A stretch of 35,153 nt of DNA from an archaeon (GTDB lineage Archaea; Asgardarchaeota; Hermodarchaeia; Hermodarchaeales; Hermodarchaeaceae), in contig JABXGX010000202.1 of the NCBI GenBank assembly GCA_016550405.1, positions 1-35,153 on the forward strand, given 5' to 3'. Under the pieces are notes generated by a model. That model saw nothing but the letters and a program-made list of their open reading frames with translations, was not told the DNA's origin and did not search any database. Of the stretch, positions 5,618 to 27,588 are shown one piece after another. Position numbers and translations under genes: made by a program. Each line of letters opens with the position of its first letter. Position 1 is the stretch's first letter.

Positions 5618-6955
5618 ATGCCACAGTTTCTCGATCTATTCCTTACCGAGTTGCAGGAAAAACGCGATGCCTTTCGACGTCGACTTACCGGGGAAGATTC
5701 CACAGAACTTGGTGGGCTTTTGAAAGCTGCCTTTCAGAAAGAATGGCGTGATCTGCCTTCCGAAATAAAATCCGATTTACGAGTTATTGCTGTGGATAGC
5801 GGGCGATCAACTCGCGAATATGCCTCTGGTTCCTTTATGTACATATGCCGAGCAAGCGCCATCACCTCTTGGGGTCCAACTTACCGGCAACTGTCTTCAA
5901 ACGCCCACATGATTGCATCTCCCCGTGAACAGCTCATCGACCTTGCGAGTATTCGTTCCGAACACATCGAACATCAGGTAGCACTTCAGGCGGTGCAAGA
6001 CACCTCGGATGTCGATTTAATACTACTTGATGGCTCCTTATACGGGCGAATTACCCATGTGCCCATAGCATTCAATTATCCTGGTGAAAGGGATCTGTAT
6101 CTCCGGTATATGCAGACTTTTATGCAACTCCTTGAAGAATGCCGGAAACGAAAAATCCTGATTCTCGGCATTAGCAAAGATTCAGTTGCGCGCCACCTCA
6201 CTCGAATGCTACTCCAATCTCTTAAGACTGATATATTAGAGGATCTCAGTTCAGCTCTCTCGTCATCAGATATTGATCAACTAATCCAACTCTTGGATAC
6301 AGAAAAGAAACAATCATTATCCGCTAGACGCATCCTCAAAGCCCTTCATCTTAGTGGCGATCAATATGACCTGATATGGGATTTACTTTATGAGCTTCGA
6401 CGACCACGACCAGACTTTTTCCTGATTTATGCATGGGCTGAAACTGCCGGTTACACAACGCCCATAGAACCCTACCCCGATGTTCCTCTTTTCAAATACG
6501 AATCTAAAGACCCTGCAGCCTATGTTCGCAGGCGGTTTGTTGATGCCTATAACGATTATGACCGTGAGGACGCTTTTGAGGAATGGGCTATCCCTGTAAT
6601 GAAGGATTTCTTTCAAATTCCAACTTTTGTGACATTTTGTGCAAAATTAGCATATAACGATACTCCAATGAGAATTGATATGCCTGCGTTTAGTGCAGGC
6701 CTCCCAACCCGGCTTTCTCAGATTTCATCCTCACGCCTACTCGACCCACCTCCAACTCGTGTCAAGGAAGTCCTAGGAACCTTACGTGGTGAATATGGTG
6801 GGTTAGAGTTGTATAATGTCTATTTAGTAAAAGCCGATCAGGAAGCCCGCTTACCCATGAGTGATGTGAGAAAATTGTATGAACCATTAATAGAAAAAGA
6901 ATTGAAAATACCATTAACCCTCAAACGCCGAGAAAGGAGGGTCCGTCGTGCCTGA
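5618..6955 (+). CDS. nurA: NurA 5'-3' nuclease
   Basis: A 445-residue NurA-domain protein. The hallmark first active-site strand is VIAVDSGRSTREYASGS with D60. A second acidic strand, LILLDGSLYG (D138), follows after a helical segment, as in the RNase-H-like NurA fold that binds Mn2+. The protein degrades 5' strands and single-stranded ends, and in archaea it docks as a dimer on the HerA hexamer for end resection. It is the first gene of a tight run: herA starts inside its last codons (8-base overlap), then the Mre11-like and Rad50-like genes. It is longer than the roughly 330-400 residues usual for NurA; the extra length is mostly helical sequence in the middle. Confidence 0.92.
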   Translation: MPQFLDLFLTELQEKRDAFRRRLTGEDSTELGGLLKAAFQKEWRDLPSEIKSDLRVIAVDSGRSTREYASGSFMYICRASAITSWGPTYRQLSSNAHMIASPREQLIDLASIRSEHIEHQVALQAVQDTSDVDLILLDGSLYGRITHVPIAFNYPGERDLYLRYMQTFMQLLEECRKRKILILGISKDSVARHLTRMLLQSLKTDILEDLSSALSSSDIDQLIQLLDTEKKQSLSARRILKALHLSGDQYDLIWDLLYELRRPRPDFFLIYAWAETAGYTTPIEPYPDVPLFKYESKDPAAYVRRRFVDAYNDYDREDAFEEWAIPVMKDFFQIPTFVTFCAKLAYNDTPMRIDMPAFSAGLPTRLSQISSSRLLDPPPTRVKEVLGTLRGEYGGLELYNVYLVKADQEARLPMSDVRKLYEPLIEKELKIPLTLKRRERRVRRA

Positions 6956-9750: not shown

Positions 9751-12117
9751 ATGGTCATTCTTCGTCAGCTTATCACCAAAGATTTCAAACATCTCGATGT
9801 AGACATTAAATTTCCGTTAGGTATTTTGGCTGTGAGTGGAGCAAACGAATCCGGCAAATCAAGCATTTTCGAAGCAATCCTTTTCGCCCTTTTTGGACGG
9901 ACCCACAAAGCGCCTATGGGACAAAAAGATCGAATCATCAACTACGATGCTGATCAATGTCTTGTTCAATTGCTTTTTGAACTTGAAGGCGCACAGTATC
10001 GAATCACACGAAAAATCCACCGAAAACGCCCTTCCCAAGCTAATCTGCATAAAATCGGTTCTTCTGGTCAAAGCACACTTCTGGCTACTGGTGTTAAGGA
10101 AGTCGATAATGAAATTTCTACACTGCTCAATGGGATTGCACTGAGCGACCTCCTCGCCAGTAACGTTGTCTTACAAAAGGACTTAGATCGGTTAGCTCAA
10201 ATGCCCAAGATGGAACGTCGCCATGTCATTAATGCTATGATGGGGCGCGAATGTTTCTCTCGAGCCGATGACAAACTCGCATTAGAACTTCGACCGATGA
10301 AAAAGACATTGGAACCCGAAAGAAAAGCCTTAGAGCAACTTCAACGGCGCAAGGACGACTACCTCCAACAGACCGAGGAAAAGAAGACAAAACAGGTTGA
10401 GCTCACTCAGCTTGATGAACAACTAAAGCAAATGAGTCAAGTTCTTGCGCAATCCGAGAAAAGCTTCAGTGCTGTGAAAGCGTACAAGGAAGTTCAGGAT
10501 AGTCAGGACGAGTTGCAGCGCGAAATCAAATTACGAACTGAGTCCAAGCAACAATTAAAAAAACAATTGGCAAATATCCCCAAACTCCAATCCCGACAAA
10601 AACAGCTCAAAAAACAGCAAAAGCAGCTAGACCACATAGCGGATGATACCAAGGCCATGACAACCCTTAAAGATCATTCGCGAAAGCTTCAAACGCTTCT
10701 CGAGGAACAACAAATGGTCGCTGAAATCATTAGTGGTTTAGAAAGCCAACTGGACCAAGCGACTTCAATCGATGATGTCGTATTTGAATATGACGGGGTG
10801 AAAACACATCGGCAGGAGGCCGAAGCGACTCAAAAACAGATTTTCTCACCAGTGCTCTACATCCCATCAATTGGTCTTATTGCTGCAGGCATCGGAATAA
10901 GCTTCTTTAATCTCCTTGTTGGAACGGTGTTAACCCTCATCTCCATTCCCTTCTTACTCTATTTAGGGCGTGCCTATCTTAAGTACAGGAAATCAGGACC
11001 CAAATTAGAACAACTGCGATTAAAGGAGAAGCAGCTAAGCGAGCGAATCGCTGAGTTCCGCGCAAAGGAAACATTTCAGAACCAATTACAGGAGCAACGG
11101 GCTCATAAAGAAGATTTGACTAAACAGGTCTCTGAAGCTAGTCATCAGGTTCATTCACAACTAGGCAATCTCTCCTCCTCGGTTCTTGAGGGAATTGAAG
11201 TCCCTCGTAAGCCGAATGCAACAGATCTTCAGGAAGCTGTTAGGGCTGTTGAGCAGAGCTTCTTAAAACTTGAAGCAGGCGCAACTTCCCTTACAGACCA
11301 ATTAACTTCGATAGAGGAACAACTAGCAGGATTATCTGAAGCTGAAGCCGATTTAGCCCAGACTGAATCAATTATCTCAAATCTAAATGAGGCGCTATCA
11401 ACTCTTGACTTCCCTTCATTGCCAGAAGAGCTGGAAGTTTACTCAGATTCGCTATATGAAGAACTCGACCAAAAGGTCCGACAATTGCGGGAAGAAAAAA
11501 TACGTTTACAGACCACTCGCAAAAATACGGTTGACCGAATCGACGAATTAACAATTCTGCTAAAGGCTAATGAAGGTGTCGCTGATGAATTCTCAGAAAA
11601 GGAAGCTCAGGTAGCACAATTGGATGAAAATATCAAAACAGGCCAGCTCATTATTGACCTTATCCGAGATGTTGCTGAAAGGGGCCGAGAACAAGTTCGA
11701 CCTCGCGTTGTCAATGTCATGGAACGCCTTTTAGCCGCGATCACTGATGGCAAGTATCGATTTCCAAAGTTAAGTGAAGACTATAGCCTCAAAGTATATT
11801 CTTCAACAGCCGGAGAGTATGTAGAAGCTAATCTTTACAGTGGCGGAACAGAGGATCAATTTCTACTCGCCCTGCGTTTAGGCTTTGCTATTGCTCTTCT
11901 CCCGCAAGGTCGTGGGACAGCTCCCCAGTTTCTTCTTTTGGATGAACCTTTCGGTGGCTCAGATATCCAACGTCGTGATAATATCATTCGTCTTCTTCAA
12001 GATGAATTATCTCGAACCTTTCAGCAAATCATCGTCGTGAGCCATCAAACCGCTGTTCTATCTGCATCTGAGTACCAATACCGTATGGCAAATGGCCGGA
12101 TTCTTCATTCTGGTTAA
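9751..12117 (+). CDS. Rad50/YhaN-like SMC-type ATPase with a transmembrane hairpin
   Basis: A 788-residue SMC-like ATPase. Walker A is GANESGKSS (K36); the ABC signature is YSGGTEDQ (697-699, SGG); Walker B is LLLDEP (D731, E732). Between the lobes lie two long coiled-coil arms (about 175-360 and 412-640). No CxxC zinc hook is present anywhere. Instead the apex carries two hydrophobic helices (about 368-386 and 388-406) with a short turn between them, flanked by a basic RAYLKYRKSG segment. This layout and the NES-type Walker A recall bacterial YhaN, which also has a membrane hairpin in its coiled coil. The gene sits directly after the Mre11-like gene, so it is the likely Rad50 partner, but membrane-anchored. 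It ends in a TTAA shared with the convergent GNAT gene. Confidence 0.88.
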   Translation: MVILRQLITKDFKHLDVDIKFPLGILAVSGANESGKSSIFEAILFALFGRTHKAPMGQKDRIINYDADQCLVQLLFELEGAQYRITRKIHRKRPSQANLHKIGSSGQSTLLATGVKEVDNEISTLLNGIALSDLLASNVVLQKDLDRLAQMPKMERRHVINAMMGRECFSRADDKLALELRPMKKTLEPERKALEQLQRRKDDYLQQTEEKKTKQVELTQLDEQLKQMSQVLAQSEKSFSAVKAYKEVQDSQDELQREIKLRTESKQQLKKQLANIPKLQSRQKQLKKQQKQLDHIADDTKAMTTLKDHSRKLQTLLEEQQMVAEIISGLESQLDQATSIDDVVFEYDGVKTHRQEAEATQKQIFSPVLYIPSIGLIAAGIGISFFNLLVGTVLTLISIPFLLYLGRAYLKYRKSGPKLEQLRLKEKQLSERIAEFRAKETFQNQLQEQRAHKEDLTKQVSEASHQVHSQLGNLSSSVLEGIEVPRKPNATDLQEAVRAVEQSFLKLEAGATSLTDQLTSIEEQLAGLSEAEADLAQTESIISNLNEALSTLDFPSLPEELEVYSDSLYEELDQKVRQLREEKIRLQTTRKNTVDRIDELTILLKANEGVADEFSEKEAQVAQLDENIKTGQLIIDLIRDVAERGREQVRPRVVNVMERLLAAITDGKYRFPKLSEDYSLKVYSSTAGEYVEANLYSGGTEDQFLLALRLGFAIALLPQGRGTAPQFLLLDEPFGGSDIQRRDNIIRLLQDELSRTFQQIIVVSHQTAVLSASEYQYRMANGRILHSG

Positions 12118-13187: not shown

Positions 13188-14534
13188 ATGAAATCATCGG
13201 AACAAATCGTGAATCGGTGGAAGAAAGCTTTCCCCTTAGCTGGTTTCAAACCTGCACTAGAGAAACCCTCTGATGAGGATCATCGGCTCGCCAAACAATT
13301 CTGTCCCACGCTTTATGCTGATCCTGCTCTCATTCAAGAAGAGCAAACGGATTTGGCAAAGAACCTGGGACTTGTGGAGGATGGTGGTAGGCTTGCCTCT
13401 CTAAGGAAACGGATTCGTGGTGATGATTTCGCAGGCATTGTAGACACTCTTTTCCTCTTTTGTCTTGGCGAATTCCCAGAAAATCTCAATGGTGCCAAAC
13501 TTGCGGTATTAGGCGTGGATTTACCGGAAAGTGATATCCCCTGGGATAAAGAGATGCATGGGGTACTCGACAAAATTCGAGAAAGACTTCGCTCAGAATA
13601 TTCTTTGCAATTCCTTGAGTATGTGCGTAATCTTTATTCAACTATCTTTCCTTCTGAAAATACCCCCACGTGTGTAATCAAATATCGAGTAAGCCGGGAT
13701 CCTGCAGACAAAAACGTGTTCTGTATTCAGTATTTTGCCTACTGGCCTATCCAATTGCTTCCTCGCCACCTTTATGATTACGAGCCAGTTTTTGTGATTG
13801 TACGGAAAAATGGCAAAACCTTCGAACCACTCATTGTGACATTTAACGCCGATTACGGGGCACGACCTCTTCTCAAAGGCAAACGCCCTGGGCACATCAT
13901 TCGCTCCTTCATTAACTGGGATAGTGATGATTTACAAATAACACCAGACGAGTTCAATCCAATGGCTGACTATATGACCAAAGCTTTTGGTGGAAGTTAT
14001 CACTATCAAGAGGTTCCAAGTGATCGACGCGTCAGTCATATCGACAATCTTCAAAGCGCTAATAGTCCCATTACCTTACATGTTCCCAAGAAATGGCATT
14101 CCTATGATCTTTCCACAGCAGAAATACGTCATGATAACTGGGCGTTGCCTATTACCTTACATCCCCTAAAAACCCAAGATTTACTCCATATCGAATGGAA
14201 TGTACAAAACCCATTTCAAGCTCCTTTCCTTTTCCCAAATGTAGGCAAGAAAAATGCCTTGATGCATTTTCCTCTTTATGCTGCAACTCTTTGGCAAAAC
14301 GAAACTTACCGACGATGGAGTGATTTTGCGATGGTTGAATTCCACATCAAGCATGGACGCCCTTCTCAGACCGTTTCGAACATGTATGCATACCAGGTTG
14401 GTCTCTTCATCGATTTATTCGCAGAAATCTCTGGTGAAGGCTTAGGACTAAGTATGTGGCCGCTAATTGAAGCCAGGGAGCGCGAAATCGAGGAGACTCT
14501 CTCATTTCTTCAACGAATCCGTAAACCTAAATAA
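13188..14534 (+). CDS. Unrecognised 448-residue soluble protein
   Basis: I do not recognise this family with confidence. It has no signal peptide or membrane helix. The N-terminal third (1-150) is helical and charged. A middle beta-rich section contains QYFAYWPIQLLPRHLYDYEPV and then VTFNADYGARPLL. This loosely recalls the aromatic-H/D-DYE strand pattern of Vps62/NPP1-like domains, but the match is too weak to name it. Aromatic residues are abundant throughout. The start ATG has AGGAGA nine bases before it. The gene is followed 62 bases on by the membrane zinc-ribbon gene in the same direction, a probable two-gene operon. Confidence 0.7.
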   Translation: MKSSEQIVNRWKKAFPLAGFKPALEKPSDEDHRLAKQFCPTLYADPALIQEEQTDLAKNLGLVEDGGRLASLRKRIRGDDFAGIVDTLFLFCLGEFPENLNGAKLAVLGVDLPESDIPWDKEMHGVLDKIRERLRSEYSLQFLEYVRNLYSTIFPSENTPTCVIKYRVSRDPADKNVFCIQYFAYWPIQLLPRHLYDYEPVFVIVRKNGKTFEPLIVTFNADYGARPLLKGKRPGHIIRSFINWDSDDLQITPDEFNPMADYMTKAFGGSYHYQEVPSDRRVSHIDNLQSANSPITLHVPKKWHSYDLSTAEIRHDNWALPITLHPLKTQDLLHIEWNVQNPFQAPFLFPNVGKKNALMHFPLYAATLWQNETYRRWSDFAMVEFHIKHGRPSQTVSNMYAYQVGLFIDLFAEISGEGLGLSMWPLIEAREREIEETLSFLQRIRKPK

Positions 14535-25481: not shown

Positions 25482-25559
25482 TGGCGGGCCCTCCGCGATT
25501 TGAACGCGGGACCTACAGGTCCGGAACCTGTCGCCCTATCCATACTAGGCCAAGGGCCC
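25482..25559 (-). tRNA. tRNA-Arg, anticodon CCG
   Basis: Read on the minus strand it folds as a full cloverleaf. The acceptor GGGCCCT pairs with AGGGCCC, the D stem is GCCT/GGGC, the anticodon stem ACAGG/CCTGT encloses loop TTCCGGA, and the T stem CCGCG/CGCGG encloses TTCAAAT. The anticodon CCG reads Arg CGG. The discriminator is G, and CCA is encoded at 25482-25484. No intron. The molecule is 75 nt plus CCA. Confidence 0.95.
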
Positions 25560-27511: not shown

Positions 27512-27588
27512 GGGCCCGTGGCCTAGTTGGATATGGCGCCAGATTGCGGATCTGGAGGTCCGGGGTTCAAATCCCCGCGGGCCCGCCA
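27512..27588 (+). tRNA. tRNA-Arg, anticodon GCG
   Basis: The cloverleaf has acceptor GGGCCCG/CGGGCCC, D stem GCCT/TGGC with one mismatch, anticodon stem CCAGA/TCTGG around loop TTGCGGA, and T stem CGGGG/CCCCG around TTCAAAT. The anticodon GCG reads Arg CGC (and CGU). The discriminator is G and CCA is encoded at 27586-27588. No intron. Confidence 0.95.

Follow-up and report, generated by a model that had tools for sequence, protein, structure and literature searches.

The Rad50-like ATPase encoded in a 35,153-nucleotide stretch of Asgard archaeal DNA (positions 1 to 35,153 of contig JABXGX010000202.1, assembly GCA_016550405.1, family Hermodarchaeaceae; this whole stretch is referred to below as the window) has a hydrophobic helical hairpin at the apex of its coiled-coil arms in place of the zinc hook. 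The gene is the last of a nurA-herA-mre11-rad50 operon, and the same apex is conserved in homologues from a second archaeal phylum. The products of this operon probably form a membrane-anchored Mre11-Rad50-HerA-NurA machine for the processing of DNA ends, so that in these archaea the cell membrane may be the place where DNA breaks are dealt with.

Rad50 is commonly defined in part by its zinc hook, and the usual picture of break repair sets it in the interior of the cell. If a conserved class without the hook and with a membrane hairpin is real, a membrane anchor would be able to take the place of the joining module of Rad50 in nature, and in some archaea, relatives of eukaryotes among them, end resection would be located at the membrane. 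The function of the hook could then be tested directly, and such tests could be pursued outside the uncultured Asgard archaea because there are homologues named Thermofilum and Caldarchaeum as well as genomes with near-complete chromosomes. Searches of an open-licence literature collection, which contains few subscription papers, gave no title or abstract opening with a description of a membrane hairpin in an archaeal Rad50. The word “transmembrane” is absent from the main text of three papers (PMC9389158, PMC10586767, PMC9764264), and the passages of PMC9905601 that deal with Rad50 mention no membrane hairpin.

A hydrophobic hairpin at the Rad50 apex

The Rad50-like protein has a split ABC ATPase head with the Walker A, signature and Walker B motifs (Table 1), the Q-loop residue Q142 and H765, and is encoded alongside an Mre11 nuclease. 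The key ATPase residues are invariant in an alignment of 46 sequences (A1), which consists of the query and 45 of 92 search matches, 27-71% identical to it. The best sequence match in the PDB is the Rad50 structure 5f3w, and the best fold matches are two Rad50 chains of 7zr1 (TM-scores 0.35-0.41), followed by Smc5/6. The NCBIfam Rad50 model PRK03918 matches at E 1.3e-35 with 122.7 bits, short of its curated cut-off of 700; the tested hook-bearing archaeal proteins also score under the curated cut-offs of the NCBIfam Rad50 models. No CxxC motif is present anywhere in the 788-residue protein or in any of the 46 rows of A1, so that a missed zinc hook is rejected; because the apex lacks the hook, the protein is denoted here Rad50-like and assigned to a hook-less sister class. 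A reading of the window made from the sequence alone had reported intact ATPase motifs, two coiled-coil arms and no CxxC, all of which hold.

The same sequence-only reading placed two hydrophobic helices with a tight turn at residues 368-406, and this placement holds. Window positions 10852-10968 (+) are exactly codons 368-406 of the open reading frame (ORF) at 9751-12117. The two most hydrophobic 19-residue segments of the protein are 388-406 and 368-386 (Kyte-Doolittle means 2.15 and 1.99), and the third, at 122-140 in the head, reaches only 1.37. The longest run free of D, E, K and R comprises 44 residues (363-406) against 18 for the second longest, and an uncharged run as long as that of the apex was reached in 1 of 20,000 shuffles of the protein. 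In the AlphaFold2 model, helices span 367-384 and 388 onward and are separated by a three-residue turn (mean predicted local distance difference test score, pLDDT, 79.8; predicted template modelling score, pTM, 0.44). Essentially the same hairpin, with helices at 365-383 and 387 onward, is predicted for P0126, a distant relative named Caldarchaeum (mean pLDDT 82.3, pTM 0.48).

No other part of the coiled-coil region is as well conserved as the hairpin. An uncharged apex run of at least 43 residues is present in 45 of the 46 rows of A1, the exception being P0042 with an aspartate at the turn. When the most distant row is set aside, the mean column entropy is 1.08 bits in the hairpin, compared to 1.62 and 1.75 bits in the arms and 0.75 and 0.45 bits in the two head parts, and none of the 349 arm windows of 42 residues is as conserved as the hairpin. 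Residues S366, P367, Y370, P372, G380, N387, G391, P400 and F401 are fixed or nearly fixed, N387 occupying the turn in 38 of 45 rows.

This conservation extends to further homologues. A search with P0048 yielded 224 proteins, and among the best 120 listed, 119 were new; all 119 have a hydrophobic 42-residue segment (mean at least 1.4), 114 have an uncharged run of at least 35 residues, and only one contains a CxxC in the region 250-550. A third search produced 323 proteins, of which the best 120 listed added 66, with 64 of these passing the hydropathy test at the centre. Altogether, 277 homologues were collected: 244 with a central hairpin (threshold 1.2), 32 with a hook, none with both and one with neither. 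Thus, the two apex types do not mix among these 277 proteins, although the 244:32 ratio is not a census because the searches used hairpin-type queries. The possibility that a frame-shift, fusion or mis-assembly had put a hydrophobic insert into an ordinary Rad50 can be dismissed for practical purposes, given the 45 rows of A1 and 244 of 277 homologues that keep the hairpin and its presence in uninterrupted frames of all 36 apex-bearing loci described below (16 Asgard and 20 from the second phylum).

Membrane insertion or soluble dimerization

That the hairpin actually sits in a membrane is a prediction from hydropathy scales and the AlphaFold2 models. The 15-residue flanks of the hairpin contain on average 4.4 and 2.9 K+R versus 1.4 and 1.3 D+E in A1, and the turn contains no K or R and is uncharged in nearly every row; basic flanks combined with an uncharged turn fit a hairpin with both ends inside. 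Two observations weigh against insertion. The confidence of AlphaFold2 at the apex is moderate, with block means of pLDDT of 58-78 over residues 361-410 of the window protein and of 56-76 in P0126, where the value falls to 50 just before the hairpin. On the Hessa scale, the two apex segments sum to +2.0 and +0.3, helix 1 being only moderately hydrophobic, so that the two helices would have to enter the membrane together, as a single unit.

Under an alternative that we consider improbable, the hairpin would be a soluble dimerization knob, with two or more hairpins bundling outside the membrane in place of the zinc hook. Such a role would be in keeping with the strong conservation of individual residues, including glycine and proline, which fits specific packing, and with the statement that the basic role of the hook is dimerization and that an SMC hinge can substitute for it (PMC6969161). 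However, 43 charge-free residues with a three-residue turn would leave a two-chain bundle no polar face for water; the flanks are basic; and, as a segment lying in the bilayer should, the apex stays hydrophobic although the sequence diverges widely (best 42-residue mean at least 1.4 in all 119 and, centrally, in 64 of 66 of the additional homologues among the matches listed). A soluble globular insertion, which would have undone the initial assignment of the apex, is excluded as far as the sequence and the AlphaFold2 model tell. Membrane insertion is retained here as the preferred interpretation of the hairpin.

Distribution and operon conservation in archaea

Two relatives on genome contigs are named Candidatus Hermodarchaeota (67 and 72% identity), which puts the window in an Asgard archaeon belonging or close to this group, and the source names among the listed homologues include Bathyarchaeia, Caldarchaeum, Calditenuaceae, Nitrososphaeria, Thermofilum and Njordarchaeia. 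Hairpin-type Rad50 was detected in 17 of 227 Asgard genomes, 16 through a profile of the operon Mre11 and one (G166) through Rad50 only; in G005 the apex itself lies off the contig, and a C-terminal piece in G162 was left uncounted. The 16 genomes match the Mre11 profile at E 1e-142 or better and nothing falls between that value and 8e-43, a gap that is sharp in part because 10 of the 16 genomes supplied rows of the profile. Among the 18 Asgard loci taken, 16 extend over the apex, and in every one of these it is a hairpin without CxxC; Mre11 adjoins Rad50 in 16 of the 18, and HerA and NurA are each present in 13, the misses being at contig ends. A search of relatives returned the hairpin type in 15 of 392, none of them outside known Asgard genomes.

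The second phylum, taken as Thermoproteota because it was reached through a genome with Cren7, was represented by an even sample of 398 genomes out of a larger group, and 24 of these contain a hairpin-type match at E 1e-60 or better. The copies in G561 and G573 are 99-100% identical to proteins named Thermofilum and Thermofilaceae, respectively, and the copy in G500 is 100% identical to a Calditenuaceae protein. One locus was taken from each of 20 of the 24 genomes, with G431, G620, G692 and G776 set aside as being in pieces. The hairpin is present in all 20 loci (best 42-residue mean 1.33-2.43) and a CxxC in none; Mre11 is adjacent in all 20, HerA in 14 and NurA in 13. Some of the misses occur at contig ends (HerA and NurA in L138, L147 and L115; NurA in L152). 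Three of the 20 loci (L141, L142 and L155) lack both HerA and NurA despite at least 5.8 kb of upstream sequence read, which counts against the proposed machine. For the two phyla combined, the hairpin is found in 36 of 36 apex-bearing loci with no CxxC, and Mre11 is adjacent in 36 of 38, the remaining two loci starting at a contig end.

Mre11 shows a motif variant: motif III reads GHHD rather than GNHD in 8 of 22 hairpin-linked Mre11 rows (L050, L021, L051, L139, L140, L141, L143, L144). The Mre11 of the window keeps GNHD.

Two probable classes of Mre11-Rad50 in archaea

In a tree built from the heads only, with the apex left out (47 rows), the 22 archaeal hairpin proteins form a clade (support 100/98), which grows to a clade of 27, likewise with 100/98, when five far hairpin proteins are counted in. 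In the Mre11 tree (39 rows), the 22 hairpin-linked Mre11 proteins lie on one side of a branch (93/89). Because apex type, head and Mre11 go together, an old split is favored over repeated loss of the hook, and the hairpin pairs probably represent a second Mre11-Rad50 class of long standing in archaea. The hook rows are not a single group in the 47-row tree, with P0053, P0055, P0059 and P0063 nearer to the hairpin clade (98/92). In an earlier 53-row tree made by a quick method, the hook rows fell on one side of a branch (SH-like approximate likelihood ratio test 99), 24 archaeal hairpin rows were grouped with a value of 85, and the far hairpin rows P0084, P0085 and P0092 stood apart. The smaller set was obtained by dropping seven long-branch rows (L057, L058, L070, P0083, P0084, P0085, P0092) and adding one SMC row. 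The root of the 47-row tree is unsure, and with it which apex is older, because the rooting SMC row is a cut frame of 801 amino acids (aa) with a very long branch.

A more far-reaching reading is possible, although we would hold it only tentatively: archaea would have two ancient Mre11-Rad50 classes, one joined by zinc and the other by the bilayer, and in lineages with the bilayer class only, all Mre11-Rad50 break processing would be membrane-bound. The lineages in question would be most of the Hermodarchaeota-like genomes seen and several genomes of the second phylum, including one that matches Thermofilum.

Other Rad50 types in the same genomes

The check for a second, hook-bearing Rad50 gave a divided answer. 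Among the 17 Asgard genomes with the hairpin type, eight (G005, G006, G007, G025, G103, G165, G166 and G206) also carry a CxxC Rad50, each type with its linked Mre11; the hook motif of G025 is CEVC, in a frame cut by a contig end. These CxxC Rad50s occupy clusters of their own with Mre11 and, mostly, also HerA. In the other nine genomes, of unstated completeness (G001, G002, G003, G066, G068-G071 and G084), the scoring of up to 30 candidates per genome gave no second Rad50. Leaving aside two G084 frames of 1217 and 1156 aa, the other heads read in these genomes look like SMC proteins, L175-L178 and L180 matching SMC best and having no CxxC; nor is there a CxxC in the G002 piece L179, and no Rad50-like or Mre11-like ORF was found at the places of weak hook-profile matches in G068-G071. 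An exception, which counts against the proposed machine, is G067, a close relative placed beside G066 in the RpoB tree (21 of the 27 genomes asked), which has a hook Mre11-Rad50 pair (L069) and in which no hairpin type was found. Base composition gives no sign of contamination as the source of this pair (0.43 versus 0.456).

In the second phylum, Rad50 content was classified in full for part of the genomes. In the five with long contigs (G456, G495, G537, G549, G561), no Mre11-linked Rad50 other than the hairpin type was found. Each of the five has one other clear full-length Rad50-like protein, of 791-824 aa and with a CxxC, around which there is no Mre11-like ORF within 7.5-9 kb, and the three of these proteins that were scanned match arcadin-4 best; two more matches, one in G537 that is weak and broken and one in G561, yielded no CxxC Rad50. 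G416 and G567 have a hook pair beside the hairpin type, and G404 and G500 have a second Mre11-Rad50 pair in which Rad50 has neither hook nor hairpin.

A third kind of apex, without CxxC or hairpin, occurs in Rad50 proteins of 758-759 aa encoded in a second nurA-herA-mre11-rad50 operon of two second-phylum genomes (L163, 2988-8750; L165, 3062-8838), and a 905-aa protein that adjoins Mre11 in G103 (L181) likewise has neither. In G416 (L167, 2-6066), a hook pair is preceded by HerA and a cut NurA, which score 714 and 169 bits, respectively, with the profiles of the hairpin operon, and the HerA-NurA module may have been swapped between the hairpin and hook classes. Stand-alone CxxC proteins of about 800 aa are found at L157-L162, L168 and L171-L173 in the second phylum, with arcadin-4 the best match of L157, L158 and L160.

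A putative membrane-anchored machine for end processing

The four genes of the window are all on the + strand, overlapping or a few bases apart, and the ORFs that flank them on either side are on the opposite strand. The gene content, with nurA, herA, mre11 and rad50 together, is that of the HerA-NurA end-resection operon, and the identification of the operon in the initial reading is borne out by family matches, gene spacing and conservation in other loci. The Mre11-like protein has the phosphoesterase and metal-site motifs D10xH12, GDLFD, GNHD, H169 and GHNH.

In the mechanism proposed here, the hairpin would enter the membrane from the cytoplasm and keep its two flanks on that side, and two Rad50 protomers would pair through their hairpins within the bilayer, the membrane hairpin doing the joining work of the hook. 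The heads, on arms that would hold them up to roughly 25-30 nm away (an estimate from the ~198 residues of the shorter arm), would bind DNA ends with Mre11 in an ATP-dependent manner, as in ordinary Mre11-Rad50, and HerA-NurA would then resect the end for homologous recombination near the membrane. Where the hairpin type is the only Mre11-linked Rad50, general break repair would fall to it. The Rad50 hook is described as a dimerization module that can be replaced in yeast by an SMC hinge (PMC6969161), and the MukB hinge has been used for this purpose in yeast. In Sulfolobus, Rad50, Mre11 and HerA co-precipitate, and NurA was not found in the co-precipitate (PMC2288612); this counts against a four-component machine, as does the fact that operon linkage is no proof of a complex. 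What stands of the machine originally suggested from the sequence is the hairpin in place of the hook and the conserved operon; the membrane location, dimerization there and end processing there are putative.

The initial reading had further suggested that this machine perhaps deals with incoming DNA or chromosome ends at the membrane. In a rival of this kind, which is based on analogy and which we regard as unlikely, the same membrane machine would be specialized for incoming or outgoing DNA (uptake or conjugation-like exchange) or for foreign DNA, and general repair would be left to other enzymes. A precedent is offered by PMC9905601: in some Thermoproteales, rad50 and herA-like genes are part of the Ted loci for DNA transfer, and the strand that is transferred has been proposed to be generated by NurA-HerA; a division of labor would also agree with the eight Asgard genomes that keep a hook pair beside the hairpin pair. 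In contrast, nine Asgard genomes and the five long-contig genomes of the second phylum yielded no other Mre11-linked Rad50. The HerA of the window scores 235.7 bits with the HerA model compared to 113.7 with anti-phage HerA and 100 with CedD, so that assignment to the DNA-import ATPase CedD is rejected. Other genes of the window are those for TFB, an ABCE1-like protein, tRNA synthetase and rRNA methyltransferase, and its 28 ORFs scanned include no family linked to transfer or mobile elements; a plasmid origin is rejected given these housekeeping flanks and the 137 matched plasmid records, none covering more than 80% of the query in a search that did not extend to a phage collection. A defence system is rejected because none of the PADLOC matches (HerA 178.9 bits, LmuB 90.7 bits, mad3 77.1 bits) is accompanied by a gene for a defence partner. 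The presence of the hairpin pair as the only Mre11-linked Rad50 in several genomes and the housekeeping character of the window genes speak against the special role, and a general role of the membrane-anchored machine in break repair is at least as likely.

Comparison with known systems

The Mre11-Rad50 and HerA-NurA proteins of Sulfolobus and Pyrococcus share with the system described here the operon content, ATPase head, Mre11 motifs and coiled-coil arms, and differ in having a zinc hook where the hydrophobic hairpin is found; the heads and Mre11 of the hairpin type branch apart from hook-bearing archaeal pairs, in trees that do not include the Sulfolobus and Pyrococcus proteins themselves. 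The bacterial SbcE (YhaN) is an SbcC-like ATPase with a membrane hairpin, encoded beside an SbcD-like nuclease (YhaO), and to our knowledge this pair comes without HerA-NurA. It is the nearest parallel in architecture, with a hairpin at the apex in both. In Bacillus pumilus, yhaN and yhaO appear under lexA/SOS in a listing in PMC3896406, and a passage of PMC4205851 also cites the SbcE literature.

The archaea-specific SMC-related proteins (ASRP, ClsN, Sph) resemble the hairpin type in having an SMC-like head and arms, and the vast majority have a zinc hook (PMC9389158). The window protein does not belong with them, scoring 51.5 bits with the NCBIfam ASRP model (593 positions, cut-off 300) against 122.7 with Rad50, and having no CxxC. 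Arcadin-4 (Rkd4) is likewise archaeal and Rad50-like and is present beside the hairpin type in genomes of the second phylum, but the three scanned copies keep CxxC, lack the hairpin and are without an Mre11-like ORF in the adjoining DNA that was read. Lamassu LmuB is a Rad50-like ATPase that in some cases lacks the hook (PMC10586767). It sits in a defence operon with an effector, whereas the partners here are repair enzymes, and the LmuB score of 90.7 bits, with no defence partner among the adjoining genes scanned, places the window protein outside the Lamassu and SMC-type defence systems.

Features of the operon and the remainder of the window

Table 1. Coordinates in the window of the operon genes and of the parts of the Rad50-like protein.
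Feature	Position	Strand	Evidence
NurA nuclease, 445 aa, first operon gene	5618..6955	+	Pfam NurA PF09376 E 1.7e-17; 8-base overlap with herA
HerA helicase/translocase, 543 aa	6948..8579	+	Pfam DUF87/HerA E 2.8e-40; NCBIfam HerA NF040819 235.7 bits
Mre11-like nuclease, 387 aa	8586..9749	+	Pfam Metallophos E 1.1e-16; NCBIfam Mre11_Sulfo E 7e-28
Rad50-like ATPase with hairpin apex, 788 aa	9751..12117	+	Pfam AAA_23 E 5.5e-18
Walker A GANESGKS, aa 30-37	9838..9861	+	G30, N32, E33, G35, K36, S37 invariant in 46 rows
N-terminal coiled-coil arm, aa 167-363	10249..10839	+	AlphaFold2 helices
Hydrophobic helix 1, aa 367-386	10849..10908	+	Hydropathy, AlphaFold2, charge-free run
Turn at N387 and hydrophobic helix 2, aa 387-406	10909..10968	+	Hydropathy, AlphaFold2, charge-free run
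C-terminal coiled-coil arm, aa 408-664	10972..11742	+	AlphaFold2 helices
ABC signature SGGTEDQ, aa 697-703	11839..11859	+	Invariant in alignment
Walker B LLLDE, aa 728-732	11932..11946	+	L728, L730, D731, E732 invariant

Downstream of the operon lies a 448-aa ORF (13188-14534, +) with no Pfam match at E 0.01. Further along, two tRNA-Arg genes with the anticodons ccg and gcg (25482-25559, -, and 27512-27588, +) flank a gene for an M24 peptidase-like protein.
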